Of a stretch of DNA of 64,000 bases, positions 3,286-17,798 are shown piece after piece (the stretch's first letter is position 1; each line of letters starts with the position of its first letter). The position numbers and the translations under genes are program-made. The DNA comes from Ruminococcus sp. (GTDB lineage Bacteria; Bacillota; Clostridia; Oscillospirales; Ruminococcaceae): the NCBI GenBank assembly GCA_029060755.1, contig JAIDTI010000083.1, forward strand, positions 1 to 64,000. The letters run 5' to 3'. The notes under the pieces are model-generated. The model was not told the DNA's origin, did not search any database, and saw only the letters and a program-made list of their open reading frames with translations.

Positions 3286-4011
3286 ATACAGACAAAAAAA
3301 TCAGGCATATCAGGTTCAGACCTGAAATATATCGCCATTCTTGCAATGCTTATAGACCACACTGCACATATATTTGTGCCATATGGAACACTTCTCTATA
3401 CGTGTATGAGGTTTGTTGGCAGAACTACTGCTCCTGTAATGTGCTTTTTCATTTCCGAAGGCTACCACCACACAAGAAATCTGAAAAAATATTTTCAGCG
3501 TATGGCGGTTTTTGCGGTTATTTCACACTTTGCTTTTTCGTTCTGTTTCAGGAGTAATCTACTTGACTTCGGAACGTCAAGTATGATTACAACGCTTTTA
3601 CTCAGTCTTTTTGCAGTTCACGTACTGAACAGCGAAAAATTTGACAAGGCATACAAATTGCCTTTACTTCTTTTTATAGCATATCTGGCACAGCATTGCG
3701 ACTGGGGATATGAAGCAGTAATATATACTCTTGTCTTTGAAATTGCAAGGGAAAGCCGAAAAAAACAATTAACCGCATATACTGGAGCAATTTTAGTCTT
3801 TAAAATAATACCTTTTATTTCAGCAATATTCAGCGATATATCTTATTTTTTTACAAACTGGCAACAGCTTGGTGTAATTCTTCCGATACCGCTTATTCTT
3901 CTGTATAACGGTGAAAGAGGCGGAGGAAAATATACTAAATGGGTGTTCTACATCTTCTATCCCGCACATCTTATTTTATTAGGCTATCTGAATATCAGGT
4001 ATATTTTATAG
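3286..4011 (+). CDS. TraX-family integral membrane protein
   Basis: The N-terminus, with a GxSGSxLKxIAxxxMLIDHTAH pattern, is typical of the TraX family. TraX acetylates F pilin; most chromosomal homologues in Firmicutes have no defined substrate. The family signature begins well before the first ATG (3346). The open frame reaches back to a stop at 3274-3276, and the only place with a good ribosome site (GAGGGG, 3275-3280, 5-base spacer) is an ATA codon at 3286. I therefore propose a 241-residue protein starting at ATA; no ATG, GTG or TTG lies in frame upstream of 3346. About eight to ten hydrophobic helices follow. Family 0.85, start uncertain. Confidence 0.8.
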   Translation: MQTKKSGISGSDLKYIAILAMLIDHTAHIFVPYGTLLYTCMRFVGRTTAPVMCFFISEGYHHTRNLKKYFQRMAVFAVISHFAFSFCFRSNLLDFGTSSMITTLLLSLFAVHVLNSEKFDKAYKLPLLLFIAYLAQHCDWGYEAVIYTLVFEIARESRKKQLTAYTGAILVFKIIPFISAIFSDISYFFTNWQQLGVILPIPLILLYNGERGGGKYTKWVFYIFYPAHLILLGYLNIRYIL

Positions 4012-4056: not shown

Positions 4057-5268
4057 ATGGCAAAAATTATTATGAAAACACCGCTTGTTGAAATGGACGG
4101 CGATGAAATGACAAGAGTTCTCTGGCAGTGGATAAAGGATATTCTTCTTACTCCATATGTTGAACTCAATACAGAATACTATGATTTAGGTCTTGAACAC
4201 AGAGAGGCTACAAAAGACAAGGTTACAATGGATTCAGCAGAGGCTACAAAAAAATACGGTGTTGCTGTAAAATGTGCTACAATCACACCAAATGCTGCAC
4301 GTATGCCCGAATATAACCTTACGCAGATGTGGAAGTCTCCTAATGGTACTATCAGGGCTGCTCTTGACGGTACAGTTTTCAGAACTCCTATTATCGTAAA
4401 GGGCATTGAGCCATATATTCCTACATGGACAAAGCCTATTACAATTGCACGTCATGCTTACGGCGACGTTTACAAGAATACTGAAATGCGTGTTGAAAAA
4501 GGCTGTAAGGCTGAACTTGTTGTTACAGATGAAAACGGCAATGAAACAAGAGAACTTATACACGATTTTTCAAAGTGTGATGGTATCATTCAGGGACTTC
4601 ACAATCTTGATGATTCCATTGCAGGATTTGCAAGAGCTTGTCTGAATTATGGTCTTGACCTGAAACAAGATGTATGGTTTGCATCAAAAGATACAATTTC
4701 CAAAAAATATGACCACAGATTCAAGGATATTTTCACAGAAATTTACGAAAATGAATATAAGGAGAAGTACGAAGCCGCAGGTATTGAGTATTTCTATACA
4801 CTTATTGATGATGCTGTTGCACGTGTAATCCGTTCAAACGGCGGATATATCTGGGCTTGCAAGAACTACGATGGTGACGTTATGTCCGATATGGTTTCAA
4901 CAGCTTATGGCAGTCTTGCTATGATGACTTCCGTACTTGTTTCACCGGACGGAATTTATGAGTATGAGGCTGCACATGGTACAGTACAGCGTCACTATTA
5001 TAAGTATCTCAAAGGTGAGGAGACCTCCACAAACTCTGTTGCAACTATTTTTGCATGGAGCGGTGCATTACGCAAGAGAGGTGAGCTTGACAATACACCT
5101 GAACTTTGTGATTTTGCTGATAAGCTTGAAAAGGCTACAATTCAGACTATTGAAAGCGGTGTAATGACAGGCGACTTATATCTTATCTCAAAACTTGAAA
5201 ATAAGAGAAAGGTTGATTCAAAAACATTCCTTGAGGAAATCAAAATCAATCTTGACAAACTTATGTAA
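4057..5268 (+). CDS. icd: Isocitrate dehydrogenase, NADP type
   Basis: Oxidatively decarboxylates isocitrate to 2-oxoglutarate, making NADPH. The 403-residue protein is the eukaryote-like homodimeric type II enzyme, recognisable from [16 protein letters not shown] at about residues 13-28, the [10 protein letters not shown] segment, SPNGTIR (substrate Ser and Asn) and the [11 protein letters not shown] cofactor segment near 305. ATG 4057 has a GGAGGT ribosome site 8 bases upstream. It lies downstream of aconitase and directly upstream of rex. No citrate synthase or 2-oxoglutarate dehydrogenase gene is in the window, so this arm probably stops at 2-oxoglutarate for glutamate synthesis. Confidence 0.96.
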
Positions 5269-5289: not shown

Positions 5290-5928
5290 ATGTCAAAAGA
5301 TGCAATCTCAAATTCCGTAATAAGACGACTGCCGAGATATTACCGTTTTCTTGGCGAACTTGAAGCAAATGGATATGTGCGAATCTCATCAAGAGAACTT
5401 GCCGAAAAAATGGGACTTACCGCATCACAGATTCGTCAGGATTTCAACTGTTTCGGTGAATTTGGACAACAGGGCTATGGCTATAATGTCAGCGGTTTAA
5501 GAGATGAAATCGGAAAAATACTTGGACTTGACAAAACAACTCCCATGATTCTTTTAGGTGCTGGAAATCTTGGCAGAGCTATTGCATCACATATTGATTT
5601 TCAGAGCAAAGGCTTTGAACTTGTCGGAATTTTTGATGCAAACCCCGATATTATCGGAAAAAAAATCGGCAGTATAATAGTAAGCAATATCAGTGAACTT
5701 GAAAATTTCTGCAACAGAAATCACCCTGTTTCTGCCATTCTCTGTATTCCGAGAGATTCAGCTATAAAAGAAACTGAACGTCTTATAAATCTTGGTATAC
5801 GGGCATTCTGGAATTTCACTCATTATGACCTTAGAATCAATCATGAAAATATTGCTGTTGAAAATGTTCATCTTGGCGACAGTCTTACAACACTTTCCTA
5901 TGCTATTAAATCAGATTATCCGGATTGA
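5290..5928 (+). CDS. rex: Redox-sensing transcriptional repressor Rex
   Basis: Rex binds DNA when the NADH/NAD+ ratio is low and is released by NADH, controlling fermentation and electron-transfer genes. The 212 residues show an N-terminal winged helix (SVIRRLPRYYRFL, then the recognition segment LTASQIRQDFNCFG at about 43-57) and a Rossmann domain with GAGNLGRAI at about 89-97. ATG 5290 has a GAAAGG ribosome site. The gene lies 21 bases after icd and upstream of a fumC/Hdr/fumarate reductase operon that carries a Rex-like palindrome, so local control is probable. Confidence 0.96.
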   Translation: MSKDAISNSVIRRLPRYYRFLGELEANGYVRISSRELAEKMGLTASQIRQDFNCFGEFGQQGYGYNVSGLRDEIGKILGLDKTTPMILLGAGNLGRAIASHIDFQSKGFELVGIFDANPDIIGKKIGSIIVSNISELENFCNRNHPVSAILCIPRDSAIKETERLINLGIRAFWNFTHYDLRINHENIAVENVHLGDSLTTLSYAIKSDYPD

Positions 5929-6176: not shown

Positions 6177-6194
6177 TTGTTAATAATATATCAA
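6177..6194. promoter_or_regulatory. Probable Rex operator upstream of fumC
   Basis: The 18-bp site TTGTTAATAATATATCAA matches the clostridial Rex consensus TTGTTAA-N4-TTAACAA at 12 of 14 defined positions. It lies 31 bp upstream of the -35 element of the fumC promoter. A perfect TTAACAA half-site also overlaps the -10 region (6253-6259). Operator function is inferred from the consensus and the neighbouring rex gene. Confidence 0.6.
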
Positions 6195-6311: not shown

Positions 6312-7688
6312 ATGGATTATCGTATTGAACATGACTCAATGGGAGAAGTTAAAGTTCCAGCCGATAAGTACTGGGCTGCTCAGACAGAGAGAAGTCACGA
6401 AAATTTCCTTATCGGTGTAGGTATTGAAACTATGCCACGTGAGATTACTCATGCATTTGGTATTCTTAAAAAAGCTGCTGCAATTGCAAATCATGCAGTA
6501 AAACCCGAAAAAATGACAGATGAAAAGCTTTCTGCAATTTCTAAGGCTTGTGATGAAGTTATCAGCGGTTCACTCAATGAGCATTTTCCGCTTGTTGTAT
6601 GGCAGACAGGAAGCGGCACACAATCTAATATGAATGCAAATGAAGTTATTGCAAACAGAGGAAACGAAATTGCTGGTGCAAAACTTCTCCACCCGAATGA
6701 TGATATTAATATGAGCCAGTCATCAAATGATACTTTCCCGACAGCTATGCACATTGCTGCAGTTATCGCTCTGGAAGATAAAGTTATTCCAGCTGTTGAT
6801 GTGCTTATTGATACTTTCAAGCGTCTTGAGGAAGAAAATGAGGGTATTGTAAAGAGTGGTCGTACACATTTACAAGATGCTACACCGATTAAGTTCTCAC
6901 AAGAGATTAGCGGTTGGAGAGCATCTCTCGAAAAAGACAAGAAAATGATTCTTAATGCTTGTGAAGAACTCAAAGAACTTGCACTCGGCGGAACAGCAGT
7001 CGGAACAGGTCTTAATGCTCCAAAAGGATTTGCTGAAAAATCAGCAGAAGCAATCAGTCAGCTTACAGGAAAAAACTTTGTAACTGCTCCTAATAAATTC
7101 CACTCACTTACATCAAAAGATGAAATTGTATTTGCTCATGGTGCATTGAAAGCACTTGCTGCTGATATGATGAAAATAGCAAATGATGTGAGATGGCTTG
7201 CATCAGGTCCACGTGACGGACTGGGAGAAATTTTCATTCCTGAAAATGAGCCGGGTTCATCAATCATGCCTGGAAAAGTCAATCCTACACAGTGCGAACA
7301 GGTTACAATGGTAGCTGTACAGGTTATGGGAAATGACGTTGCAGTTGGCATGGCGGCATCACAAGGTAACTTTGAACTCAATGTGTTCATGCCTGTATGT
7401 GCATATAATTTCCTTCAGTCCGCAAGACTTCTTGCTGAATCAATCATTTCATTCAATAAAAATTGTGCTGTCGGAATCAAGGCAAATACAGAAAAGATGC
7501 ATCATAATCTGCATAATTCACTTATGCTTGTTACAGCACTTAATCCATATATCGGCTATGAAAATGCCGCAAAAACTGCTAAAAAGGCATTCAAGGACAA
7601 TATCTCACTTAAAGAAGCCTGCGTTGAACTTGGTTTCCTTACAGCAGAAAAATTTGATGAGGTATTCCACCCTGAACAGATGGTGTGA
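6312..7688 (+). CDS. fumC: Fumarate hydratase, class II
   Basis: Interconverts malate and fumarate without an iron-sulfur cluster. The 458-residue length is standard. The superfamily signature GSSIMPGKVNPTQ is at about residue 316, with SGSGTQSNMN-type (here TGSGTQSNMN) and SSNDTFPTAMH motifs upstream. ATG 6312 follows an AAAGGTGG ribosome site. It heads a long operon: the HdrB gene starts only 24 bases after its stop. Placed before a fumarate reductase, it probably works in the reductive direction, supplying fumarate from malate. Confidence 0.97.
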   Translation: MDYRIEHDSMGEVKVPADKYWAAQTERSHENFLIGVGIETMPREITHAFGILKKAAAIANHAVKPEKMTDEKLSAISKACDEVISGSLNEHFPLVVWQTGSGTQSNMNANEVIANRGNEIAGAKLLHPNDDINMSQSSNDTFPTAMHIAAVIALEDKVIPAVDVLIDTFKRLEEENEGIVKSGRTHLQDATPIKFSQEISGWRASLEKDKKMILNACEELKELALGGTAVGTGLNAPKGFAEKSAEAISQLTGKNFVTAPNKFHSLTSKDEIVFAHGALKALAADMMKIANDVRWLASGPRDGLGEIFIPENEPGSSIMPGKVNPTQCEQVTMVAVQVMGNDVAVGMAASQGNFELNVFMPVCAYNFLQSARLLAESIISFNKNCAVGIKANTEKMHHNLHNSLMLVTALNPYIGYENAAKTAKKAFKDNISLKEACVELGFLTAEKFDEVFHPEQMV

Positions 7689-7712
7689 AAAACTGAGAAA
7701 GGAAAAATACCT

Positions 7713-8507
7713 ATGCAAACTTTTACATATTATCCCGGCTGTACGCTTAGGACAAAAGCCAAAGATTTAGATGCTTATGCACGTTCATCTGCGGAAGCTC
7801 TCGGAATTGCACTTGTTGAGCCTGAAAACTGGCAATGTTGCGGAGGTGCTTATACAACAGCTACAAATGAACCGGCAACAAAACTTTCAGCCGTAAGAAC
7901 TCTTATGTCTGCAAAGGATTCAGAGGGACTTGTTACAGTATGTTCTGCCTGCCACAATGTAATCAAGCAGACAAACTACGATATTTCCCATAATGAAGCA
8001 ATGGCTAACAAAGTGAAGCTGTATCTCGGACTTGACGAAGCATATACAGGTGAGACAACTGTATATCATTATCTTGAGTTGCTCCGTGATGTTGTCGGAT
8101 TTGATAATCTCAAATCCAAAGTTGTAAAGCCGTTCAAAGATAAGAAAATAGCTGCATATTATGGCTGTCTCCTGTTAAGACCCTCAAAGGCTCTTGCTAT
8201 GGACGACCCTGAAAATCCCTCAATTATGGAAGATTTTATCAGGGCAATCGGCGGAACTCCCATAATCTATGCACAGCGCAATGAATGTTGCGGAGGTTAT
8301 ATTACAATGGAGGACAAGGAGCAGGCACATAAAAGAAGCAGTGCTGTTATGGATTCTGCACAGAGTATGGGAGCAGATATGATTATAACAGCTTGTCCGC
8401 TCTGTCTCTATAATTTAAAGAAAAACTCGGGTTCTGATATGCCTGTATACTACTTTACAGAACTTCTTGCCGAAGCACTTGGATTAAAGGAGGGTACAAA
8501 TGAATAA
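7713..8507 (+). CDS. hdrB: HdrB-like heterodisulfide reductase subunit (two CCG domains)
   Basis: In methanogens HdrB holds the noncubane iron-sulfur clusters that reduce a disulfide; bacterial homologues pass electrons to other low-molecular or protein acceptors. The 264 residues contain two complete CCG domains: PGC / WQCCGG / CSACH in the first half and YGC / ECCGGY / CPLC in the second, so all ligand cysteines appear present. ATG 7713 has an AAAGGA site. It overlaps hdrC by 8 bases, as expected for partners. With no coenzyme M/B expected here, the physiological acceptor is unknown; the adjacent fumarate reductase is a candidate route. Confidence 0.9.
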   Translation: MQTFTYYPGCTLRTKAKDLDAYARSSAEALGIALVEPENWQCCGGAYTTATNEPATKLSAVRTLMSAKDSEGLVTVCSACHNVIKQTNYDISHNEAMANKVKLYLGLDEAYTGETTVYHYLELLRDVVGFDNLKSKVVKPFKDKKIAAYYGCLLLRPSKALAMDDPENPSIMEDFIRAIGGTPIIYAQRNECCGGYITMEDKEQAHKRSSAVMDSAQSMGADMIITACPLCLYNLKKNSGSDMPVYYFTELLAEALGLKEGTNE

Positions 8508-8883
8508 GAATCAGAAAGAATGGATTGACATTACAAGCGGTGTTAATGTGCGTAAGTGTATGAGATGCGGAAAATGTTCTGCGACTTGTCCGTCTTATGA
8601 CGAAATGGAATATCACCCGCATCAGTTTGTCTACATGGTAGAAAATGGAAATATTGAACCGCTTCTCAATTCGGATTCACTTTATAAGTGCCTTACTTGT
8701 TTTGCGTGTGTTGAAAGATGCCCACGTGGTGTTGAACCTGCAAAGGTTGTTGAGGCAGTACGCCTTACAGCAATAAGAAAACAGGGGAATAATCATCTTA
8801 TTCCCGACCAGATTCCTGAAATGCTTGATGACGATTTGCCACAGCAGGCAATTGTTACAGCTTTCAGAAAATATACTAAATAA
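8500..8883 (+). CDS. hdrC: HdrC-like 4Fe-4S protein
   Basis: A 127-residue electron carrier with two cubane cluster motifs, CMRCGKCSATCP near residue 19 and CLTCFACVERCP near residue 67, the usual HdrC layout linking HdrA to HdrB. ATG 8500 lies inside the end of hdrB with an AGGAGG site, so translation is coupled. It has no membrane segment, so the complex should be soluble. HdrA follows after 11 bases. Confidence 0.9.
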   Translation: MNKNQKEWIDITSGVNVRKCMRCGKCSATCPSYDEMEYHPHQFVYMVENGNIEPLLNSDSLYKCLTCFACVERCPRGVEPAKVVEAVRLTAIRKQGNNHLIPDQIPEMLDDDLPQQAIVTAFRKYTK

Positions 8884-8894
8884 GGAGGAGCATC

Positions 8895-10886
8895 ATGCAG
8901 AGAATAGGTGTTTTTGTCTGCCATTGCGGTACAAATATCGCTGCTACGGTTGACGTTAAAGCTGTTGCAGAGGCTCTTAGTCATGAACAGGGTGTTGTAA
9001 TTTCACAGGATTATCAATATATGTGTTCAGAATCGGGGCAGGATTTGATTAAAAATGCTGTCAGGGAGCATAAGCTTACAGGTATTGTTGTGTGTTCATG
9101 TTCGCCACGTATGCACGAAAATACATTCAGAAAAGCTGCTGCATCTGCCGGACTTAATCCATATCTTGTTGAAATTGCAAATATCCGTGAACAGTGTTCA
9201 TGGATTCATAAAGATATTGCATCAGCTACAGACAAGGCTATTATACTTGGAAAAGCTGCTGTTGCAAAAGTTAATCTCAATACACCTCTTACAGCAGGAG
9301 AAAGTCCCGTTGTAAAGCGTGCATTGGTAATTGGCGGAGGCATTGCAGGAATACAGACTGCTCTTGATATTGCCGAAGCAGGATTTGATGTTGATATTGT
9401 TGAGAAAGAGCCTACAATCGGCGGAAAAATGGCGCAGATTGACAAAACTTTCCCGACTCTTGACTGTGCCGCTTGTATACTTACTCCGAAAATGGTTGAA
9501 GCTGCACAGAATGAGCATATAACTATCCATTCATTCAGTGAAGTGAGTGCTGTAAAAGGATTTGTCGGCAATTTTACAGTAACAATCAAGAAAAAAGCAC
9601 GTTTTATAGATGAAACAAAATGTACAGGCTGTGGACTTTGTACAGAAAAATGTCCCATGAAAAAAGTTCCGAATGAGTTCAATATGGGACTTGACAACAG
9701 AACTGCTGTTTATATTCCGTTTGCACAGGCAGTTCCAAAAGTTGCAACAATAGACCCGAATTACTGTCTTATGCTCAAAAACGGCAAATGCGGAGTATGT
9801 TCAAAAGTATGTTCCGTTGGTGCGATTGATTACAAGCAGACTGATAAACTCATTGAACAGAAATACGGCGCAATTGTTGTTGCAACGGGATTCAATACTA
9901 TAAAGCTTGATAAGTATGACGAATTTGCATACAGCTATTGCCCTGATGTTGTAACATCTCTTGAACTTGAAAGACTTATGAACGCAGCAGGTCCGAACGG
10001 CGGTACACTTCTCCGTCCGTCAGACAAAACACACCCTCATACAATTGTATTTGTGCAGTGTGTAGGCTCACGTTGCGACGACAGCAAGGGCAAACAGTAC
10101 TGCTCAAAGATATGCTGTATGTACACCGCTAAACACGCTATGCTTATTCGTGAGAAGTACCCCGATACTGAAGTATATGTGTTCTATATTGACGTACGTA
10201 CTCCCGGAAAGAACTTTGATGAGTTCTATCGCCGTGCAGTTGAGCAGTATAATGTACATTATATAAAAGGTATGGTAGGCAAGGTTAGTCCAAAGGCTGA
10301 CGGAAAAATTGACGTTCAGGCATCAGACCTTCTTTCAAATGAGCAGTTACACATAAATGCTGATATGGTTGTACTTGCGGCTGCAATTGAGCCTGATAAG
10401 TCGGCGAGACCGCTTGCAACAATGCTCACAACACAAATGGATACAAACGATTTCTTTACGGAAGCACACCCTAAGCTCCGTCCTGTTGAATCTGCAACAG
10501 CAGGTATATTCCTTTCAGGTGCTTGTCAAGGTCCAAAGGATATTCCTGAAACTGTAGCGCAGGCAAGTGCGGCGGCGGCAAAGGCTATCGGACTTCTCTG
10601 TAAAAACAGTATCACCTGCAATCCTTGTGTTGCACATTCAGATGAGCTTATGTGCAATGGCTGTTCAGCTTGTGAGAAAGTTTGTCCTTATGGTGCAATC
10701 ACATATCAGGACAAGGAGTTCAGAATGCCCGACAGAAGTATAGCAATCCGCAGAGTTGCAAGTGTCAATCCTGCTGTATGTCAGGGTTGCGGAGCTTGTA
10801 CAGTAGCTTGTCCGTCTGGTGCAATGGATTTGAACGGCTTCTCAAATAGTCAGATTATGGCGGAGGTAGACGCAATATGCAAGTAA
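8895..10886 (+). CDS. hdrA: HdrA-like FAD iron-sulfur protein (candidate electron-bifurcating subunit)
   Basis: HdrA carries the FAD at which flavin-based electron bifurcation occurs in HdrABC complexes. The 663 residues show an N-terminal cysteine region (VCHCG, VCSCSPRMHE), a Rossmann FAD motif GGGIAGIQTA at about 151-160, an inserted ferredoxin pair (CTGCGLCTEKCP near 236 and CGVCSKVC near 300), QCVGSR, and a C-terminal ferredoxin pair (CNGCSACEKVCP and CQGCGACTVACP). All codons are standard, so there is no selenocysteine. ATG 8895 follows AAGGAGGAG. It overlaps the MvhD-like gene by 10 bases. Family certain; bifurcation is inferred from the family and the Flx-like neighbours. Confidence 0.92.
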   Translation: MQRIGVFVCHCGTNIAATVDVKAVAEALSHEQGVVISQDYQYMCSESGQDLIKNAVREHKLTGIVVCSCSPRMHENTFRKAAASAGLNPYLVEIANIREQCSWIHKDIASATDKAIILGKAAVAKVNLNTPLTAGESPVVKRALVIGGGIAGIQTALDIAEAGFDVDIVEKEPTIGGKMAQIDKTFPTLDCAACILTPKMVEAAQNEHITIHSFSEVSAVKGFVGNFTVTIKKKARFIDETKCTGCGLCTEKCPMKKVPNEFNMGLDNRTAVYIPFAQAVPKVATIDPNYCLMLKNGKCGVCSKVCSVGAIDYKQTDKLIEQKYGAIVVATGFNTIKLDKYDEFAYSYCPDVVTSLELERLMNAAGPNGGTLLRPSDKTHPHTIVFVQCVGSRCDDSKGKQYCSKICCMYTAKHAMLIREKYPDTEVYVFYIDVRTPGKNFDEFYRRAVEQYNVHYIKGMVGKVSPKADGKIDVQASDLLSNEQLHINADMVVLAAAIEPDKSARPLATMLTTQMDTNDFFTEAHPKLRPVESATAGIFLSGACQGPKDIPETVAQASAAAAKAIGLLCKNSITCNPCVAHSDELMCNGCSACEKVCPYGAITYQDKEFRMPDRSIAIRRVASVNPAVCQGCGACTVACPSGAMDLNGFSNSQIMAEVDAICK

Positions 10887-11314
10887 ACGAAAATTTTGAG
10901 CCTGTAATAGTAGCATTCTGCTGTAACTGGTGTTCATATGCAGGTGCAGACCTTTCAGGCACTAACAGACTTAATTATCCTGCAAACGTAAAAATAATAA
11001 GAGTTCCATGCTCATGCAGAGTAAATCCCATGTTTATACTCCGTGCATTTCAGAAAGGTGCAGACGGTGTTATAATATGCGGTTGTCACCCTGGCGACTG
11101 TCACTACACATCAGGAAACTATTTTACAAGAAGAAGAATCACACTTCTTTACAGTATGCTTGATTTTCTTGGAATTGAACGAAACAGAACACGTCTGGAG
11201 TGGGTTTCTGCCGCAGAGGGTGCAAAATTTGCTGCTGTTATGAATCAGTTTGTAGAAGATGTCAGAAAACTTGGTAAAAATCGCAGATTGGAGGATTTAC
11301 GATGCAGGAAGTAA
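10877..11314 (+). CDS. mvhD: MvhD/FlxD-like iron-sulfur protein
   Basis: A 145-residue protein of the family that connects an electron donor module to HdrA through a [2Fe-2S] cluster. Conserved cysteines are seen in AFCCNWCSYAGAD near residue 12, VPCSCR near 45, and CGCHPGDCHY near 67. It overlaps hdrA and the next gene (by 13 bases), so it is translated with them. With no hydrogenase gene beside it, it fits the FlxD role, linking an NAD(P)H-oxidising FlxABC unit to HdrA. Confidence 0.9.
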   Translation: MQVNENFEPVIVAFCCNWCSYAGADLSGTNRLNYPANVKIIRVPCSCRVNPMFILRAFQKGADGVIICGCHPGDCHYTSGNYFTRRRITLLYSMLDFLGIERNRTRLEWVSAAEGAKFAAVMNQFVEDVRKLGKNRRLEDLRCRK

Positions 11315-12273
11315 TGATAAAAAGAGCAAAGGAACTTCTCGCAGACGGCACTGTAAACCGTGTAATCGGTTGGAAAAAAGGTGAGTTTTTCTATGATGCA
11401 ACACCTGCTGTTTTCAGAACAGCAGAGGAACTTGACAACGAATTTGTTTTTGACGACTTCACACAAGCCAATGTATCAAAGTATCTTGTAAAAGAATCAC
11501 GCAAAGAAGGAAAAATTCTTGCTTTCCTCAAACCATGCGATACCTACAGTTTCAATCAGCTTGTAAAGGAACACAGAATAATCCGTGAAAATGTGTATGT
11601 TGTAGGTGTTCCGGGAGGTCCGAAGCTTGATATTGAAAAAATAAAGGCAAAGGGAATTACTGGTGTTCTTAATGTAAAGAATGAGAACTATACTATTAAA
11701 ATAGAAACACTCTACAGCACAGAGGAAATGCCTTTTTATGAGGCAGTAAGCGGAAAATGTAAAAGCTGTAAGAGTAAAAAGCACGTTGTATATGATGAGC
11801 TTATCGGCGAAGACGGAGATATACTTGACTCCAACCGTTTCGATATGGTTGAAAAACTTGAAAACATGACAGCGGAGGAGCGTTTCAACTTCTGGCAGAA
11901 TGAACTTTCAAAGTGCATCAGATGTAATGCCTGCCGTAATGTATGCCCTGCCTGCACTTGTGAAAACTGTGTGTTTGACAACCCGAAATCGGGTGTTGAT
12001 AATAAAGCACCTGCTGACAGCTTTGAGGAAAAAATGTTTCATATTATCAGGGCATTTCACGTTGCAGGAAGATGTACAGACTGCGGAGAATGTTCAAGAG
12101 TATGTCCGCAGAATATACCATTGCATCTTCTCAACAGAAAGTTCATCAAGGATATAAACAGTCTTTATGGTGACTATCAGGCTGGTGCAGATACAACATC
12201 AAAAGCTCCTCTTAATGATTACAATACAGATGATTGTGAGCCGTCAATCGTACATGAAAGGGGCGTTGAATAA
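11302..12273 (+). CDS. 4Fe-4S electron-transfer protein, FlxB/F420-hydrogenase beta-like
   Basis: The 323-residue soluble protein has an N-terminal domain of the FrhB/Flx type (FLKPCDTYSF near 73), a CKSCKSKK metal-binding pair near 154, then a cluster-rich region CIRCNACRNVCPACTC near 204 and a second motif CTDCGECSRVCPQ near 256. Such proteins carry electrons between an NAD(P)H-oxidising flavoprotein and HdrA. It overlaps mvhD by 13 bases and the next gene by one base (TAATG). Which of FlxB or FlxC it corresponds to cannot be settled by eye, so no symbol is given. Confidence 0.8.
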   Translation: MQEVMIKRAKELLADGTVNRVIGWKKGEFFYDATPAVFRTAEELDNEFVFDDFTQANVSKYLVKESRKEGKILAFLKPCDTYSFNQLVKEHRIIRENVYVVGVPGGPKLDIEKIKAKGITGVLNVKNENYTIKIETLYSTEEMPFYEAVSGKCKSCKSKKHVVYDELIGEDGDILDSNRFDMVEKLENMTAEERFNFWQNELSKCIRCNACRNVCPACTCENCVFDNPKSGVDNKAPADSFEEKMFHIIRAFHVAGRCTDCGECSRVCPQNIPLHLLNRKFIKDINSLYGDYQAGADTTSKAPLNDYNTDDCEPSIVHERGVE

Positions 12274-13292
12274 TGCTTAAAATATCTACTGATAAGTTAA
12301 ACAGTCTGTTTGATGCAATTTCAGCAAAGCAGACACTCTATATTACTGTTGACAATGAAAACGGTTCTGCTGAATACAAAAAGTACGAAAGCGGAATGAC
12401 ATTGAGCAAGTCTCTTAATACAGTACGCAGTGCAAAGGATTTTTTCTTTCCGCAGACTGAAAATCTTGCTGATTTTAAAGTTGAGGGAAAAAATATTGAA
12501 GTTATTGATGTACGTGAGGAATCGGAAGATTTTGTTGTTTTCGGTGTACGTGCCTGCGACGCAAGAAGTTTTACAATTCTTGACAAAGTTTTTCTGTCTG
12601 AACCTGTTGACAGCTACTACAAAAACCGCCGTGAACATGGTACTATAGTTACAATGGCTTGCACAAAGCCTGCTGAAACCTGTTTTTGTACAGCTTTCGG
12701 CATTGACCCGACTGTACCAGAGGGAGATGTTGCTGTATTTTTTGACGGTGAAAATTATTTCTTCCTTGAACGTACAGAAAAAGGCGAAAAGTTTATAGCC
12801 TCAATTTCAGATATGTTAGAGGACGGCGATACTTCAAAACTCAACGAAGTTCAGGAAAAGGCAAGAGACATCATGAAAAAGTTACCGCTTGCAAATCTTT
12901 CAACAAAGTCATTTGGCGGTGAAAGATTAATGGAACATTTCAACTCTGAAAAATGGGCTGAACTTTCTGAATCGTGTTTAGGCTGTGGAACTTGTACTTT
13001 TGTATGCCCTACTTGTCAATGCTATGATATTCGTGATTTCAATACAGGACACGGAATAAAGCGTTTCAGATGCTGGGATTCGTGTATGTACTCTGATTTT
13101 ACAAAAATGGCACACGGCAACTCAAGAAATTCACAGCTTGAAAGATTCCGTCAGAGATTCATGCACAAGCTTGTATATTTTCCTGCAAACAATAACGGCG
13201 AGTTTGGTTGTGTAGGCTGTGGAAGATGTCTTTCAAAATGTCCTGTATCAATGAATATTGTCAAGGTAATGAAAGCACTGGAGGATAAATAA
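12273..13292 (+). CDS. 4Fe-4S protein, AsrA/FlxC-like
   Basis: A 339-residue protein resembling subunit A of anaerobic sulfite reductase and sulfhydrogenase. An N-terminal half has VRACDARSF near 92 and CTKPAETCFC near 130, followed by two cluster motifs, CLGCGTCTFVCPTCQC near 234 and CVGCGRCLSKCPVSMN near 313. AsrA-type proteins pass electrons from an AsrB-type flavoprotein, which is the next gene (one-base overlap). No sirohaem subunit (AsrC) is present, so sulfite reduction is unlikely; the electrons more plausibly go to HdrA. Confidence 0.82.
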   Translation: MLKISTDKLNSLFDAISAKQTLYITVDNENGSAEYKKYESGMTLSKSLNTVRSAKDFFFPQTENLADFKVEGKNIEVIDVREESEDFVVFGVRACDARSFTILDKVFLSEPVDSYYKNRREHGTIVTMACTKPAETCFCTAFGIDPTVPEGDVAVFFDGENYFFLERTEKGEKFIASISDMLEDGDTSKLNEVQEKARDIMKKLPLANLSTKSFGGERLMEHFNSEKWAELSESCLGCGTCTFVCPTCQCYDIRDFNTGHGIKRFRCWDSCMYSDFTKMAHGNSRNSQLERFRQRFMHKLVYFPANNNGEFGCVGCGRCLSKCPVSMNIVKVMKALEDK

Positions 13293-14119
13293 TGAATAAC
13301 GATACATTAATACCGCTTATCGGCGTTGTTACTGATATAAGACAGGATACACCTGATGTAAAAACATTCAGGGTAAATGCCATTGAGGGCGGAAAAGTTT
13401 TTGAGCATATGCCCGGACAGTGTGCAATGCTTTCAATTCCAGGAGTTGGCGAGGGTATGTTTTCAATAACATCTTCTCCGACAAACAAGGAGTTTATGGA
13501 GTTCAGCATTAAAAAATGCGGTTGTCTTACAACATGGCTTCACGCTATGGACGTAGGTCAGCAGATTACAATAAGAGGTCCATACGGAAATTATTTTCCT
13601 GTTGAAACAAATTTAAAGGGCAAAGACCTTTTATTTATTGCAGGCGGTATCGGTCTCGCTCCGCTCCGTTCAGTAATAAACTATGTGCGTGACAATAGAG
13701 CAAATTATGGTGATGTTCAGATTATCTACGGCTCACGCTCAAAAGATGATTTGGTTGACTATCAGGAAATTATCGACGAATGGCAGGCAGACTCGAATAT
13801 TCAGGTTAATCTTACAATCGACAGGGAGCAGGAGGGCTGGGACGGTCATGTCGGCTTTGTTCCGAACTATGTCAAGGAACTCAATCCCTCAACAAGTAAA
13901 ACTGTTCTTGTCTGCGGTCCGCCGATTATGATTAAGTTTACTCTTACAGGACTTAAAGAACTTGGATTCACTGAAACTCAGGTATATACAACAATGGAAC
14001 TCCGTATGAAATGCGGTGTAGGAAAATGCGGACGATGCAACATAGGCAATAAATATGTGTGCAAGGATGGTCCTGTTTTCCGCTTTGACCAGTTAGGCGA
14101 ACTTCCCGACGAATATTAA
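13292..14119 (+). CDS. FAD/NAD(P)H-binding reductase, AsrB/FlxA-like
   Basis: The 275 residues form a ferredoxin-NADP reductase fold: FAD domain with MPGQCAML near 40 and GMFSITSSP near 55; NAD(P) domain with IAGGIGLAPLRS near 115 and VCGPP near 207; and a C-terminal [2Fe-2S] motif CGVGKCGRC near 246. This is the likely NADH entry point of the Hdr complex, equivalent to FlxA. It shares one base with the preceding AsrA-like gene and is followed after 17 bases by the fumarate reductase iron-sulfur subunit. Preference for NADH over NADPH cannot be read by eye. Confidence 0.87.
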   Translation: MNNDTLIPLIGVVTDIRQDTPDVKTFRVNAIEGGKVFEHMPGQCAMLSIPGVGEGMFSITSSPTNKEFMEFSIKKCGCLTTWLHAMDVGQQITIRGPYGNYFPVETNLKGKDLLFIAGGIGLAPLRSVINYVRDNRANYGDVQIIYGSRSKDDLVDYQEIIDEWQADSNIQVNLTIDREQEGWDGHVGFVPNYVKELNPSTSKTVLVCGPPIMIKFTLTGLKELGFTETQVYTTMELRMKCGVGKCGRCNIGNKYVCKDGPVFRFDQLGELPDEY

Positions 14120-14136
14120 TAAAGGAGTTAAAATTC

Positions 14137-14811
14137 ATGGATAATATGGTTAATATTTATCTGTTCGGCAAAAAATATCAAGTGCCGTCAGGTCTTACAA
14201 TTATGACAGCTATGGAATATGCAGGTTATGAGCTTGTACGTGGCTGTGGCTGTCGTAACGGATTCTGCGGAGCTTGTGCAACTATCTACAGAATCAAGGA
14301 TAAACAGGAACTTCATGCTTGTTTGGCTTGTCAGACAGAAGTGCAGGAGGGTATGTATGTTGCAACTCTCCCATTCTTCCCGCTTGTAAAGCAGGTTTAT
14401 AACATCAACGAAATAAAACCGCATGACCAGATTATGATGCAGCTTTATCCTGAAATTTACGCTTGTATCGGCTGTAATGCCTGCACAAAGGCTTGTACGC
14501 AGGAACTCAATGTTATGCAGTATATCGCATATGCACAGCGTGGCGAATATGACAAATGTGCGGAGGAAAGTTTTGACTGTGTAATGTGCGGAGTATGTTC
14601 ATCACGCTGTCCTGCTGGTATCTCACACCCACAGGTTGCAATGCTTGCACGTCGTCTTAACGGCAAGTATATCGCTCCTGAATGTGAGCATCTCAATAAC
14701 CGTGTAAATGAGATAAATGAGGGTACATTTGATAAACTCATTGAAGATTTGATGCAAAAGCCGATTGATGAAATCAAAGAACTTTACAACAACAGAGATA
14801 TAGAGAAGTAA
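14137..14811 (+). CDS. frdB: Fumarate reductase-type iron-sulfur subunit
   Basis: A 224-residue SdhB/FrdB/TfrB-like protein: [2Fe-2S] domain with GCGCRNGFCGAC near residue 36 and CLAC near 65, then two further motifs CIGCNACTKACTQ near 110 and CVMCGVCSSRCPAG near 148. It resembles the N-terminal part of TfrB of methanogen thiol:fumarate reductase, whose C-terminal part is HdrB-like; here HdrB is a separate gene in the same operon. There is no membrane anchor subunit anywhere nearby, arguing for a soluble enzyme. ATG 14137 has a GGAGT site. The flavoprotein gene follows after 16 bases. Confidence 0.85.
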   Translation: MDNMVNIYLFGKKYQVPSGLTIMTAMEYAGYELVRGCGCRNGFCGACATIYRIKDKQELHACLACQTEVQEGMYVATLPFFPLVKQVYNINEIKPHDQIMMQLYPEIYACIGCNACTKACTQELNVMQYIAYAQRGEYDKCAEESFDCVMCGVCSSRCPAGISHPQVAMLARRLNGKYIAPECEHLNNRVNEINEGTFDKLIEDLMQKPIDEIKELYNNRDIEK

Positions 14812-14827
14812 TAGGAGGGGTAAAGTC

Positions 14828-16432
14828 ATGTATAAAATTGACAAACTTAATGAACTTGCTGAAATCGTTGCTGAAAAGAGAGCGGAAAATGCAAGTCTTG
14901 AGCCAAAACGAATGACGGCAGAGGAAAAAGAAACTCTCCTTGCTACTTTTCACCCTGATTATAAGCAGGACGAATTTACAGTTCTTTCAGCAGGTGTAAA
15001 CAAGGGCGAAAAAGTTCCGTCACAGCTTGCAGAACTCTTGCAGGGCAAAAGCAGAATCAGTGCAGAAGATGTTGACCTCTCAAAGCCTGATTATGATACA
15101 GATGTACTTATTATAGGCGGAGGCGGTGCAGGTGCATCAGCAGCTATTGAAGCTGATGAAGCAGGTGCAAAAGCTATGATTGTCACAAAACTTCGCATAG
15201 GTGATGCAAATACAATGATGGCAGAGGGCGGTATACAAGCCGCTGATAAGCCTAATGATTCACCAGCTGTTCATTATATTGACGCTTTCGGCGGTGGACA
15301 TTTTGCGGCAAAACCTGAACTTGTAAAAAATCTTGTAACAAAAGCTCCCGAAGCTATTCAGTGGCTTAATAAGCTTGGTGTTGAATTTGACAAGGAAGCC
15401 GACGGCACAATGGTTACAACTCATGGCGGCGGTACATCAAGAAAACGTATGCACGCAGCTAAAGATTATTCAGGTGCAGAAATTATGAGAACTCTCCGTG
15501 ATGAAGTTCTTAACCGTGGTATTCCTGTTGTTGATTTTACAGCAGCTGTTGAAATTATCCTTGACGAAAACGGCAGGGCAGCCGGTGCAGTTCTCATGAA
15601 CATGGAAACAAAAGAGCTTCTTGTTGTACGTGCAAAAACTGTAATTATTGCTACAGGCGGAGCAGGAAGACTTCATTATCAGGGTTTCCCTACATCAAAT
15701 CACTATGGTGCTACAGCTGACGGTCTTATCCTCGGCTACAGAGTAGGTGCAAGACTTCTCTATGCTGATACTCTCCAGTATCACCCGACAGGCACAGGCT
15801 ATCCCGAACAGATTTTTGGTGCTTTGGTTACAGAGAAAGTACGTTCACTTGGTGCAAAGCTTGTAAACATTGATGGCGAAGTTTTCATGAATCCGCTTGA
15901 AACACGTGATGTTACAGCATCTTCAATTATTCGTGAATGTACTGAACGCAACAAGGGTATTGAAACACATCTCGGCAAAGCAGTATGGCTTGATACTCCG
16001 ATGATTGAACTTATTCATGGTGAGGGTACAATTGAAAAAAGAATACCTGCTATGATGCGTATGTTTGGCAAGTACGGTATTGACATTCGCAAAGAGCCGA
16101 TACTTGTATATCCTACACTTCATTATCAGAACGGCGGACTTAATATAAGCGTTGACTGTTCAACAGATGTTGAGAATCTCTATGCCGCAGGTGAAGTTGC
16201 AGGAGGTATTCACGGCAGAAACAGACTTATGGGCAATTCACTTCTTGATGTTATTGTTTTCGGTCGTGACGCAGGTAAAAATGCGGCTGCTAAAGCTAAA
16301 GAAACGGCAGTTCCTGAAAAACTCACTCTTGAACATATCGAAAAGTTCAACAGTGAACTTGCGCAGGCAGGAATTGAAAGTGATACCGCTTCACCTATGC
16401 TTCTCCCACACTATGCAAGAAAATCAAAGTAA
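14828..16432 (+). CDS. frdA: Soluble fumarate reductase flavoprotein subunit
   Basis: Predicted to reduce fumarate to succinate. The FAD motif IIGGGGAGASAAIEAD is at about 96-111; substrate-site motifs QYHPTG near 318 and GIHGRNRLMGNSLLD near 459 are intact. The residue that carries covalent FAD as His in SdhA/FrdA appears replaced (GDANTMMAEGG near 128), so FAD should be non-covalent, as in TfrA and L-aspartate oxidase. About 90 residues precede the FAD domain, a charged extension not usual for the family, and the C-terminal helical domain is short. L-aspartate oxidase is an alternative, but pairing with an FrdB-like subunit and no nadA/nadC nearby favour fumarate reductase. Confidence 0.85.
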   Translation: MYKIDKLNELAEIVAEKRAENASLEPKRMTAEEKETLLATFHPDYKQDEFTVLSAGVNKGEKVPSQLAELLQGKSRISAEDVDLSKPDYDTDVLIIGGGGAGASAAIEADEAGAKAMIVTKLRIGDANTMMAEGGIQAADKPNDSPAVHYIDAFGGGHFAAKPELVKNLVTKAPEAIQWLNKLGVEFDKEADGTMVTTHGGGTSRKRMHAAKDYSGAEIMRTLRDEVLNRGIPVVDFTAAVEIILDENGRAAGAVLMNMETKELLVVRAKTVIIATGGAGRLHYQGFPTSNHYGATADGLILGYRVGARLLYADTLQYHPTGTGYPEQIFGALVTEKVRSLGAKLVNIDGEVFMNPLETRDVTASSIIRECTERNKGIETHLGKAVWLDTPMIELIHGEGTIEKRIPAMMRMFGKYGIDIRKEPILVYPTLHYQNGGLNISVDCSTDVENLYAAGEVAGGIHGRNRLMGNSLLDVIVFGRDAGKNAAAKAKETAVPEKLTLEHIEKFNSELAQAGIESDTASPMLLPHYARKSK

Positions 16433-16440
16433 TAAATGCA

Positions 16441-16473
16441 AAATCGACGGGCTTTTTTAGTCCGTCGATTTGT
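16441..16473 (+). terminator. Terminator after the fumarate reductase operon
   Basis: AAATCGACGG and CCGTCGATTT form a perfect 10-bp stem with an 11-base loop, nine bases after the flavoprotein stop. The following TGTG is a poor U tract, so read-through into the transporter gene is possible. Confidence 0.6.
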
Positions 16474-16529
16474 GTGAATAGATATTTTGTTAATTTTTAC
16501 AAAAAAAATGAAAAGAGGTAATTTTTTTT

Positions 16530-17798
16530 ATGGAACTATTTAAGTCAGGAGACTTTGTAATTGCAGTCAAGGAAGTAGTATTCCTTGTATTCACTGTTTT
16601 TTTGATTACAACAGTCGGCTATCTTCTCGGACGAATCACTATAAAAGGTGTTTCACTCGGTACAGCAGGAGTTTTTATTGTCGCACTTCTCTATGGCTGT
16701 TTCTTCTTTGATAATCTCGGCAAAAATCTCATGGCGAGTGAGGTTATAAATGATGCTAAAGTCTCTATAACGTTTGTAAAATCGGCACTAAAAATTGTTG
16801 AAAATATAGGTCTTATACTCTTTGTTACTTCTGTAGGATTCATTGCAGGACCGAATTTTTTCGGCAATTTCAAGAAAAATTTCAAGTCATATGTACTTAT
16901 CGCACTTGTTGTAATTATCACAGGCGGACTTTCATGTGCAGGCTGTATTTTTGTTGATGGCATGATTTCACCTGAAAGCACAACAGAAGAAAGTGCGTCA
17001 ATGCTTGTCGGACTTCTTTCAGGCTCACTTACAAGTACCCCTGCATTTTCAGCAGCCAAAGCAACTGTTGCAAGTCGTGACAACGGTGCAGACCTTGAAA
17101 CTATTGTAACTGTCGGTCACGGAATAGCTTATCTTTTCGGCGTTATCGGTGTTGTACTTTTCGTACAGATTATCCCGAAAATGATGAAAGCAAATATGGC
17201 TGTTGAACGTGAAAAGCTTGTTGCTACAGATTCAGGAAACAAGAAAAAATCCTATAACGGAAAAATTATTGAAATGGACGAATTTGGATTCATGCCATTT
17301 TCACTTGCAGCTATTCTTGGTATATTCATTGGTTCAATCAAGTTCGGCAACTTCTCTCTTACAACAACAGGCGGTTGCCTTTTGATTTCACTTATTTTCG
17401 GTCATTTTGGTCATTTCGGTGCTGTCTCTGCAATGCCAAAGGATACAACTCTCAAAGTTTTCCGTGAGTTCGGACTTGTGCTTTTCCTTATCGGTGCAGG
17501 CGTTTCAGGCGGTGCAAGCTTTGTTACATATTTCAAGGCTGTCTACTTCCTCTATGGAGTGATTATGACAATTATTCCTATGATTATCGGTTTCATTTTT
17601 GCAAAGTATGTTCTCAAACTCAGCTTACTTAATAATCTCGGCTCAATTACTGGCGGTATGACTTCAACTCCTGCTCTTGGTACTCTTATCGGTACAGCAG
17701 GTACAGAAAATGTTGCATCTGCCTATGCCGCTACTTATCCGGTTGCTTTGATTTCAGTAGTTATAATTTCTCAAGTTTTGCTTATTATATTCAAGTAA
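16530..17798 (+). CDS. Aspartate:alanine exchanger family transporter (candidate succinate exporter)
   Basis: A 422-residue membrane protein with two homologous halves of about five helices each, with GLLSGSLTSTPAF near 162 and the mirrored GSITGGMTSTPALG near 370, the duplicated hallmark of the AAE family (AspT; SucE of Corynebacterium exports succinate). AspT-type proteins are about 550 residues with two TrkA-C domains between the halves; here only a short hydrophilic linker (about 225-250) remains, so the regulatory domains are absent. The position directly after fumarate reductase suggests succinate export; aspartate/alanine exchange is the alternative. ATG 16530 follows AAAAGAGG. A weak Rex-like dyad lies at 16487-16502. 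Confidence 0.82.
   Translation: MELFKSGDFVIAVKEVVFLVFTVFLITTVGYLLGRITIKGVSLGTAGVFIVALLYGCFFFDNLGKNLMASEVINDAKVSITFVKSALKIVENIGLILFVTSVGFIAGPNFFGNFKKNFKSYVLIALVVIITGGLSCAGCIFVDGMISPESTTEESASMLVGLLSGSLTSTPAFSAAKATVASRDNGADLETIVTVGHGIAYLFGVIGVVLFVQIIPKMMKANMAVEREKLVATDSGNKKKSYNGKIIEMDEFGFMPFSLAAILGIFIGSIKFGNFSLTTTGGCLLISLIFGHFGHFGAVSAMPKDTTLKVFREFGLVLFLIGAGVSGGASFVTYFKAVYFLYGVIMTIIPMIIGFIFAKYVLKLSLLNNLGSITGGMTSTPALGTLIGTAGTENVASAYAATYPVALISVVIISQVLLIIFK

Follow-up and report, generated by a model that had tools for sequence, protein, structure and literature searches.

The 64,000-nucleotide stretch analysed here (called the window: contig JAIDTI010000083.1 of Ruminococcus sp. assembly GCA_029060755.1, positions 1 to 64,000) harbors at 6312-17798 an operon of eleven plus-strand genes in which Flx-Hdr electron-transfer proteins stand beside a fumarate reductase pair, FrdB and FrdA (FrdBA). 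A NADH-dependent fumarate reductase made from Flx-Hdr and FrdBA is the best available reading of these genes, because the two modules co-occur in the class of the host, a rearranged and complete version of the gene set exists, two kinds of fumarase accompany it, the fumarate-site residues of FrdA are intact and the HdrB is of a distinct type. We regard it as moderately probable that the product is a soluble complex that works in the fermentative direction and bifurcates electrons to ferredoxin. Bifurcation itself appears plausible since HdrA keeps most of the cysteines of a solved homolog (28 of 31) and the genome encodes Rnf and a HydABC-like hydrogenase. The host genome (2.42 Mb, 90% complete) is of the same genus as Ruminococcus flavefaciens.

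The original prediction had described one run of fumarase, HdrBCA, an MvhD/FlxD-like protein, two Fe-S proteins, a FAD/NAD(P)H reductase, FrdB, FrdA and an AAE-family transporter. Gene calls in the window and family profiles gave the same genes in the same order, as follows.

6312-7688, plus strand: fumarase, class II (FumC type); Pfam Lyase_1 362 bits, FumaraseC_C
7713-8507, plus strand: HdrB, two CCG domains; SdhE 137 bits and HdrB model 126 bits, both below cut-off
8500-8883, plus strand: HdrC, two [4Fe-4S] clusters; HdrC model 69.6 bits (cut-off 160)
8895-10886, plus strand: HdrA, FAD/Fe-S flavoprotein and candidate bifurcation site; HdrA2 800 bits (cut-off 1100)
10877-11314, plus strand: FlxD, MvhD-like electron-entry protein; FlpD 186 bits
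11302-12273, plus strand: FlxX (a name used here), Fe-S protein of the Flx module; Fer4_8 and other Fer4 models
12273-13292, plus strand: FlxC-like Fe-S protein (AsrA/ShyB family); Fer4_22 108 bits
13292-14119, plus strand: FlxA-like FAD/NAD(P)H reductase (AsrB/HydG-like); NAD_binding_1, DHODB_Fe-S_bind, AsrB 199 bits (below cut-off)
14137-14811, plus strand: FrdB-like protein, [2Fe-2S] motif and two full CxxCxxCxxxC motifs; Fer2_4, Fer4_9
14828-16432, plus strand: FrdA flavoprotein; FAD_binding_2 248 bits over residues 92-472
16530-17798, plus strand: AAE-family transporter, candidate succinate exporter; Asp-Al_Ex 185 bits

The junctions overlap by 8, 10, 13, 1 and 1 bases, within the range of 1 to 13 that had been claimed, and the remaining gaps are 24, 11, 17, 16 and 97 bases. 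The word "fused" in the title of the prediction had to be dropped, as every subunit is encoded by a separate gene. The FlxABCD-HdrABC gene set is complete, with an AsrB-like protein, two Fe-S proteins and an MvhD-like protein beside HdrA, HdrB and HdrC; the FlxC-like protein scored 177 bits with ShyB and 139 bits with AsrA (NCBIfam), both below the cut-offs. No membrane anchor or cytochrome b partner was found among the operon genes besides the AAE transporter. A fusion of FrdB with HdrB of the TfrB type was also considered and rejected, the FrdB frames being at most 320 aa long (54 and 39 genome matches) and the HdrB frames at most 322 aa (class matches).

Within the class of the host (Clostridia) the pairing of the two modules is strict. 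In 391 genomes drawn from the class for co-occurrence, the window FrdB, used as query at a threshold of E 1e-15, matched 54 genomes, every match at E 4e-79 or better, and the window HdrB matched 54 of the same 391. FrdB and HdrB are found together in 52 of the 56 genomes holding either one, so the co-occurrence that the original prediction had pointed to is found within the class. HdrB occurs without FrdB in G071 and G261, where its matches lie at contig ends (bases 1-330 and 21-800); FrdB occurs without an HdrB match in G109 and G416, and in G109 it adjoins FlxA and FrdA (locus L041). Fifty-two genomes contributed 59 loci, fetched by search or by place; FlxA adjoins FrdB in every one, and FrdA lies on the other side of FrdB in 58, the last (L005) ending at a contig edge. 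FlxX is in place in all fetched class operons that reach that far. Within the genus, 21 of 24 genomes carry FrdB, and it was not found in G005, G017 and G020 (90, 82 and 86% complete).

In the best 80 of at least 537 matches to named relatives, the operon genes are colinear in all 80 as far as the contigs reach, which excludes a chance origin of the cluster. Where there is room on the contig, fumarase precedes HdrB in 58/58 of the named loci and the AAE gene follows FrdA in 62/68. The nearest named relatives are Ruminococcus, including R. flavefaciens FD-1 and ATCC 19208. Two loci of metagenome-assembled genomes (MAGs; L131 and L146) have an FrdA that matches as two separate pieces, owing to a frameshift or to faulty assembly, and two MAGs titled Treponema and Bacteroidaceae (L164, L182) carry a clostridial-type operon with FrdB 79-80% identical, for which misbinning or misnaming is likely. 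In the most distant class member (G306), whose FrdB is 49% identical to that of the window, the order is FrdB-FrdA-HdrB-HdrC-HdrA-FlxD-FlxX-FlxC-FlxA, with all nine genes kept (L060, L080), and this order is also found in three genomes outside the class (L206, L207, L238). That the nine genes stay together after rearrangement argues that they form one functional unit.

The FrdA protein carries the residues expected of a fumarate reductase. Its best NCBIfam match is TfrA (352 bits, cut-off 718), and its predicted structure (mean predicted local distance difference test score, pLDDT, 74.5) gave E. coli FrdA (5vpn_A) as top Foldseek match, with an E-value of 3e-27. An N-terminal extension of about 88 residues precedes the core; Succ_DH_flav_C was not among its Pfam matches, the chain ending about 40 residues past the aligned core. 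In the alignment to E. coli FrdA, the residues corresponding to H232, T244, E245, R248, R287, H355 and R390, which we take to be the substrate-site labels, are all kept and are invariant in 133/133 FrdA sequences (135 rows before L211 and L212, which are not of the family, were removed); R287 is poorly aligned and was assigned by motif. The position of H44, presumably the covalent-FAD histidine of E. coli FrdA, is Asn in 133/133. Loss of this histidine in the E. coli enzyme reportedly spares fumarate reduction more than succinate oxidation, and the Asn would fit a one-way fermentative enzyme. L-aspartate oxidase was rejected as the identity of FrdA: at the position of what we take to be NadB Glu121, 131 of the 133 sequences have His and the other 2 have Phe. 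A separate NadB-like gene, named from its translation, is located at G000:C16 and encodes the sole other FAD_binding_2 protein found in the genome of the window.

These data bear on two readings of the flavoprotein other than fumarate reduction. FrdBA could oxidise succinate, a reaction that ferredoxin and NAD would drive (confurcation), or serve biosynthesis, and a relative of FrdBA (L195) is indeed found among genes for glutamate dehydrogenase, 2-oxoacid:ferredoxin oxidoreductase and fumarase. The invariant Asn speaks against this, as does the succinate that R. flavefaciens makes from cellulose (PMC7174568), and we find it very improbable. FrdA could also reduce an unsaturated acid other than fumarate, since the FAD_binding_2 family also covers urocanate reductase, about 30% of the residues are identical to E. 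coli FrdA, and the model falls below a pLDDT of 50 in loops that hold several of the site residues (127-159, 197-214, 278-294, 318-331 and 465-470). We give this hardly any credence: all residues aligned to the E. coli fumarate site are kept, and one of two fumarase classes is found in 20 of 22 diverse loci.

The 22 loci comprise L011-L013, L060-L077 and L079; the cut locus L078 was excluded, as was L080, which shares its genome with L060. A class II fumarase is present in 9 of the 22 and a class I fumarase in 11, never both in the fetched stretch, and neither class was found in the stretches of L064 and L068, which represent one family. Two of the class I calls are weaker, that of L060 being 33% identical to the query yet scoring 283 bits with Pfam Fumerase, and that of L067 covering the first 87 of 280 residues, where the stretch ends. 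Class I and class II fumarases are unrelated, and the swap is therefore a functional replacement.

The electron carrier next to FrdA was less easily assigned. The cysteines of FrdB, forming a [2Fe-2S] motif and two complete CxxCxxCxxxC motifs, are invariant. In FrdB of the E. coli type the third cluster is [3Fe-4S]; here it should be [4Fe-4S], because both CxxCxxCxxxC motifs are complete. As a correction to the predicted FrdB-FrdA pair, the FrdB of the window is just remotely SdhB-like (29.8 bits with the NCBIfam dhsB model, cut-off 88). A search of its profile against PDB sequences returned mostly ferredoxin-like chains, with no SdhB among the 60 listed of 69 matches. Weak Foldseek matches to the ferredoxin domain of complex I/HydA were not used, the structure model being too poor.

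The HdrB subunit may reflect a changed partner. All ten cysteines of the non-cubane clusters are present and are invariant in the 48 of 48 HdrBs compared (L240 left out, L237 counted with the others), and its best NCBIfam match is SdhE of the 8-methylmenaquinol:fumarate reductase (cut-off 500). A tree of 49 HdrBs places 13 of the 15 rows labelled as Frd-less in one clade (bootstrap 100; SH-like approximate likelihood ratio test, SH-aLRT, 100), whose stem measures 1.09 changes per site. All 31 Frd-linked HdrBs lie outside this clade and form more than one group; L210 has two HdrBs, of which the better-scoring copy was used. Two more rows with the Frd-less label also lie outside: L237, from a genome that carries FrdBA at another place, and L240, which is a second and very diverged HdrB copy. 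Two rows of the Frd-less clade, L236 (G470) and L239 (G796), come from genomes that also hold FrdB elsewhere, and G470 has both kinds of HdrB, each in its own operon (L197, L236). The HdrA tree, with L237 relabelled, gave the same split on a stem of just 0.03 and with weak support. With L240 left out and L237 relabelled, the median ratio of HdrB to HdrA distances was 1.45 outside the Frd-less group (471 pairs), 1.66 inside it (74) and 2.37 across (416), values that are descriptive, without a test, as the pairs are not independent. The acceptor subunit HdrB has thus diverged further than HdrA, which would be expected after a change of its partner.

In a second model the operon encodes two enzymes, Flx-Hdr reducing a disulfide and FrdBA taking electrons from the thiols, as in a thiol:fumarate reductase. 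HdrB keeps both non-cubane cluster sites like disulfide reductases do, and thiols are mentioned by published authors as well (PMC7282089). However, FrdB has no CCG domain of its own to accept thiol electrons, and the HdrB is unlike that of Frd-less Flx-Hdr sets. A small disulfide carrier of the DsrC type was rejected as the acceptor, DsrC (PF04358) being absent in 7/7 genomes with a positive E. coli control. We consider the two-enzyme model quite unlikely and retain that of a single NADH-dependent fumarate reductase.

In such a complex, FlxA would take hydride from NADH, and the Flx Fe-S proteins and FlxD would pass the electrons to the FAD of HdrA. HdrA would split the pair, sending low-potential electrons to ferredoxin and high-potential electrons via HdrC to HdrB. 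We infer that HdrB, whose archaeal relative reduces a disulfide, hands its electrons straight to FrdB, so that FrdA could reduce fumarate supplied by the linked fumarase. Ferredoxin would be reoxidised by Rnf, building an ion gradient, or by hydrogenase, and succinate would probably leave via the AAE transporter. HdrA matched the solved HdrA 5odc_A in PDB with 694 bits, and the 28 cysteines that it shares with it include those of the C-terminal two-cluster ferredoxin-like part. Outside the class, one in-frame TGA, maybe for selenocysteine, is present in many HdrA matches (e.g., G610, G634, G681); the window HdrA has none.

From assumed potentials, the bifurcating reaction would yield -33 to -49 kJ per fumarate under standard conditions with ferredoxin at -500 to -420 mV, and is therefore feasible. 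The same calculation gives -68 kJ for NADH to fumarate alone, a strongly downhill reaction that needs no coupling to drive it. The same complex might thus work without bifurcation, all NADH electrons going to fumarate and HdrA being a plain conduit. This would agree with the lack of any proof of coupling at the sequence level and with the distribution of Rnf, which did not follow that of the operon across the 10 genomes searched. An uncoupled enzyme would not need HdrA and FlxD, however, and FrdBA pairs with no HdrA in the locus exist; together with the cysteines kept in HdrA, this makes the uncoupled version unlikely in our view.

As for partners in metabolism, the genome of the window has an Rnf operon (RnfC identified by family, the other subunits by reading of the translations) and a HydABC-like hydrogenase (subunits by reading of the translations). 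Of 10 genomes searched, 9 gave an RnfC match, 8 of these over the cut-off. The hydrogenase, like RnfC, is also present in genus genomes without FrdB. As Rnf does not track the operon, it is a possible user of ferredoxin and no evidence for coupling. ATP-type phosphoenolpyruvate (PEP) carboxykinase was dropped as a source of oxaloacetate after a search for this type alone gave no match in 4/4 genus genomes; it is present in G039. Lactate/malate dehydrogenase family genes occur in 5/5 genomes. Dockerin-like C-termini were seen in translations from the genome of the window (L214 11296-12276, L218 3-1196), as expected for a cellulosomal Ruminococcus.

The putative exporter of this scheme is not present in all loci. 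The AAE transporter scored 126.7 bits with TIGR01625 (cut-off 71.95), the duplication domain of AspT/YidE/YbjL, in two stretches, and Pfam Asp-Al_Ex likewise matched two stretches. The family includes a succinate exporter (PMC9527358), and a role in succinate export is plausible from the family assignment, though not universal. In the 22 diverse loci the gene follows FrdA in 8, with a ninth match in L071 (31% identical) away from FrdA; fumarase, found in 20, is nearly constant and the transporter optional. L061 has a Na_sulph_symp family transporter in its place. The Na_sulph_symp family includes dicarboxylate carriers. The transporter family named in the original prediction stands, and 6 of 68 close loci with room are without the gene. 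Where it is missing, a small hydrophobic protein (95-113 aa) was seen after FrdA (L072 1821-2159, L152 12338-12640, L186 6141-6425), and a Pfam scan of those of L072 and L152 gave no match.

Several observations weigh against a coupled, obligate complex. No feature of the sequence demonstrates ferredoxin reduction. G002 carries the operon but gave no RnfC match, and G005, G017 and G020, the genus genomes without FrdB, each gave one. The structure model of FrdB (pLDDT 57.5; predicted template modelling score, pTM, 0.43) is too poor to confirm an SdhB fold. The AAE gene, absent from the 6 close loci, is not beside FrdA in 14 of the 22 distant ones. On cellulose, R. flavefaciens makes less succinate when its H2 is taken up by a methanogen (PMC7174568). 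In Pseudoclostridium thermosuccinogenes, succinate almost vanished upon addition of H2, which the authors read as support for ferredoxin coupling (PMC7282089); physiology thus points no single way. The two modules are also unequal in number, with FrdB (profile matches at E up to 1e-15) in 39 and HdrA (E up to 1e-60) in 143 of the 398 genomes of the phylum set. No clear Hdr gene was present in 12 of 20 outside-class FrdBA loci fetched (drawn from 38 other genomes), L192 and L199 among them having just 1.3 and 2.1 kb of contig before FrdB. Conversely, of 20 HdrA loci fetched, mostly picked as not Frd-linked, one (L238) had FrdBA and 18 of the 19 others had Flx genes.

Neither module, then, needs the other, and since both also live apart, universal obligate coupling is ruled out, while the strict pairing in the class is untouched. 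The original prediction had named homologous operons that routinely lack frdAB as one sign that it was wrong; outside the class this is seen in part, Flx-Hdr operons there often being without frdAB and FrdBA often being without Hdr. Its NADH-dependent fumarate reductase is favored by the class co-occurrence and the fumarate site, and disfavored by the frequent separation of FrdBA and Flx-Hdr elsewhere.

The remaining outside-class FrdB loci contained other partners. The full Hdr-Flx set is present in 3/20 (L206, L207, L209), and HdrC-HdrB-FrdB-FrdA without HdrA, a minimal HdrBC-FrdBA set, in 3/20 (L194, L197, L198). In 2/20 (L208, L210), HdrCBA is accompanied by FlxD and a second, very long multi-domain HdrA of 1058 and 1489 aa (L208 6055-11205, L210 10122-18075); no FlxA or FlxC match was found in these two operons, which may represent a third variant of electron entry. 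FrdBA is followed by a cytochrome b-like protein in L200 (6653-7642) and L201 (6927-7913), suggesting a membrane-linked relative; the L201 copy has an Fe-S domain in front, and the protein of L201 that matches HdrC at 26% carries cytochrome b561 and Fer4 domains. L195 (7013-18819) has FrdBA with glutamate dehydrogenase, 2-oxoacid:ferredoxin oxidoreductase, class I fumarase, malic enzyme and CoA-transferase genes and would be a version for a branch of the tricarboxylic acid (TCA) cycle without Hdr. An HdrA-like gene (514-541 aa) in L191, L195 and L196 had clustered with HdrA; its L195 copy encodes a glutamate-synthase-type Pyr_redox/Fer4_20 protein, and the three loci therefore stay among those without Hdr. 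Fe-S proteins with weak RnfC matches and proteins of no family were seen before FrdBA in L193 (10178-13794) and L205 (3962-9516), possibly another donor set.

A wider model would take FrdBA with HdrC-HdrB as a separable plug, in which HdrB was turned from a disulfide reductase into a protein-to-protein conduit, and which could receive electrons from Flx-HdrA (NADH, in Clostridia), from a double HdrA with FlxD (L208, L210), from HdrBC alone (L194, L197, L198) or from cytochrome b (L200, L201). The clostridial form would then be NADH-driven and ferredoxin-making, and R. flavefaciens, like many other gut Clostridia, would form its succinate mainly through it. Taken with all its parts, we offer this model tentatively, as a possibility that falls somewhat short of probable.

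The genes and the element upstream of the operon, some of which may bear on its regulation, are as follows.

3346-4011: TraX-family membrane protein, 5' of the isocitrate dehydrogenase gene
4057-5268: isocitrate dehydrogenase gene, preceding rex
5290-5928, plus strand: Rex, NAD(H)-sensing redox repressor, directly upstream of the operon; Pfam Put_DNA-bind_N and CoA_binding
6177-6194, no strand: Rex-type palindrome TTGTTAATAATATATCAA, 117 bp 5' of the fumarase ATG

The Pfam pair Put_DNA-bind_N and CoA_binding we take to be the mark of Rex, and a Rex match lies upstream in the window and in 14 same-genus loci reaching that far (L014-L023, L025-L028). Across the 2.42 Mb genome, four sites match the palindrome TTGWTAWNNNNWTAWCAA, and the reversed control has none. 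The four lie before this operon and before genes for pyruvate:ferredoxin oxidoreductase, phosphoglycerate kinase and aspartokinase, as named from translations. By shuffling of the local region alone, the window palindrome has p = 0.055. The Rex consensus of Clostridiaceae is TTGTTAANNNNTTAACAA, and the Rex regulon of C. thermocellum includes pyruvate:ferredoxin oxidoreductase (PMC8457756). At high NADH, Rex repression of the operon may be lifted. The site is not a universal feature and was rejected as such: among 37 Rex-adjacent loci of the genus, the strict palindrome is present in 20, the near form in 23 and neither in 14, the loci without it including some of the closest relatives of the window (L111, L112, L114), and shuffling gave p < 0.05 in 24 of 83 distinct upstream regions, of which L147 is uninformative.

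Succinate of ruminal and gut Clostridia feeds propionate formation, and making it competes with hydrogen release. If the coupling is true, reduced ferredoxin from succinate formation would mean extra ion pumping by Rnf per succinate, and the operon would help to explain why succinate is made by a bacterium in which the one further FrdA-like gene detected resembles NadB. Because FrdBA occurs with varying Hdr parts, HdrB stands out as the candidate electron donor. The operon is present in R. flavefaciens FD-1 and ATCC 19208, so the published hypothesis is directly testable; for P. thermosuccinogenes a CRISPRi tool has been reported (PMC9044749). As far as known, what is new concerns how far and how strictly the two modules pair, the replacement of one fumarase class by the other, the features of FrdA and HdrB, the modular relatives and the Rex-type site. 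The titles and abstracts listed in literature searches gave no purification or activity of such a complex and none on the operon in R. flavefaciens, which is weak evidence as subscription papers lay mostly outside the search; a survey in a 2019 preprint cited by PMC7282089 may already include Ruminococcus.

The operon resembles several known systems. The FlxABCD-HdrABC of Desulfovibrio vulgaris, reportedly described by Ramos et al. in 2015, also combines an NADH-oxidising Flx module with HdrABC but has no FrdBA, and its acceptor is presumably the disulfide protein DsrC. In methanogen TfrAB, FrdB-like and HdrB-like parts cooperate as they would here, and TfrA is the best NCBIfam match of FrdA; TfrB, however, holds FrdB and CCG parts in one chain whereas here they are separate genes, and the operon scores below the TfrA and TfrB cut-offs (718 and 385). 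In SdhABE, the 8-methylmenaquinol:fumarate reductase, an HdrB-like subunit likewise serves a FrdAB pair, but SdhE is named a membrane anchor subunit while the HdrB here sits with HdrA, HdrC and Flx. Clusters of tfrAB-flxABCD-hdrABC-korABCD in tubeworm symbionts and Thioflavicoccus mobilis, for which a complex was proposed, also have fumarate reductase genes interspersed with flxABCD-hdrABC; they differ in belonging to Gammaproteobacteria, in lying in a reverse TCA cycle cluster with korABCD, aclAB, pntAB and rnf, and in the name tfrAB (PMC6315080). The closest case is the 'succinate operon' described in P. thermosuccinogenes (Koendjbiharie et al. 2020, PMC7282089), where fumarase, Flx-Hdr, fumarate reductase and a putative succinate transporter follow in the same locus-tag order and the authors assume that fumarate reduction is coupled to ferredoxin reduction. 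The coupling proposed here is therefore a hypothesis already published (PMC7282089, PMC6315080). P. thermosuccinogenes differs in being a thermophile in which regulation was studied as a response to CO2 (PMC7282089), whereas the operon of this Ruminococcus has Rex and a Rex-type site upstream.

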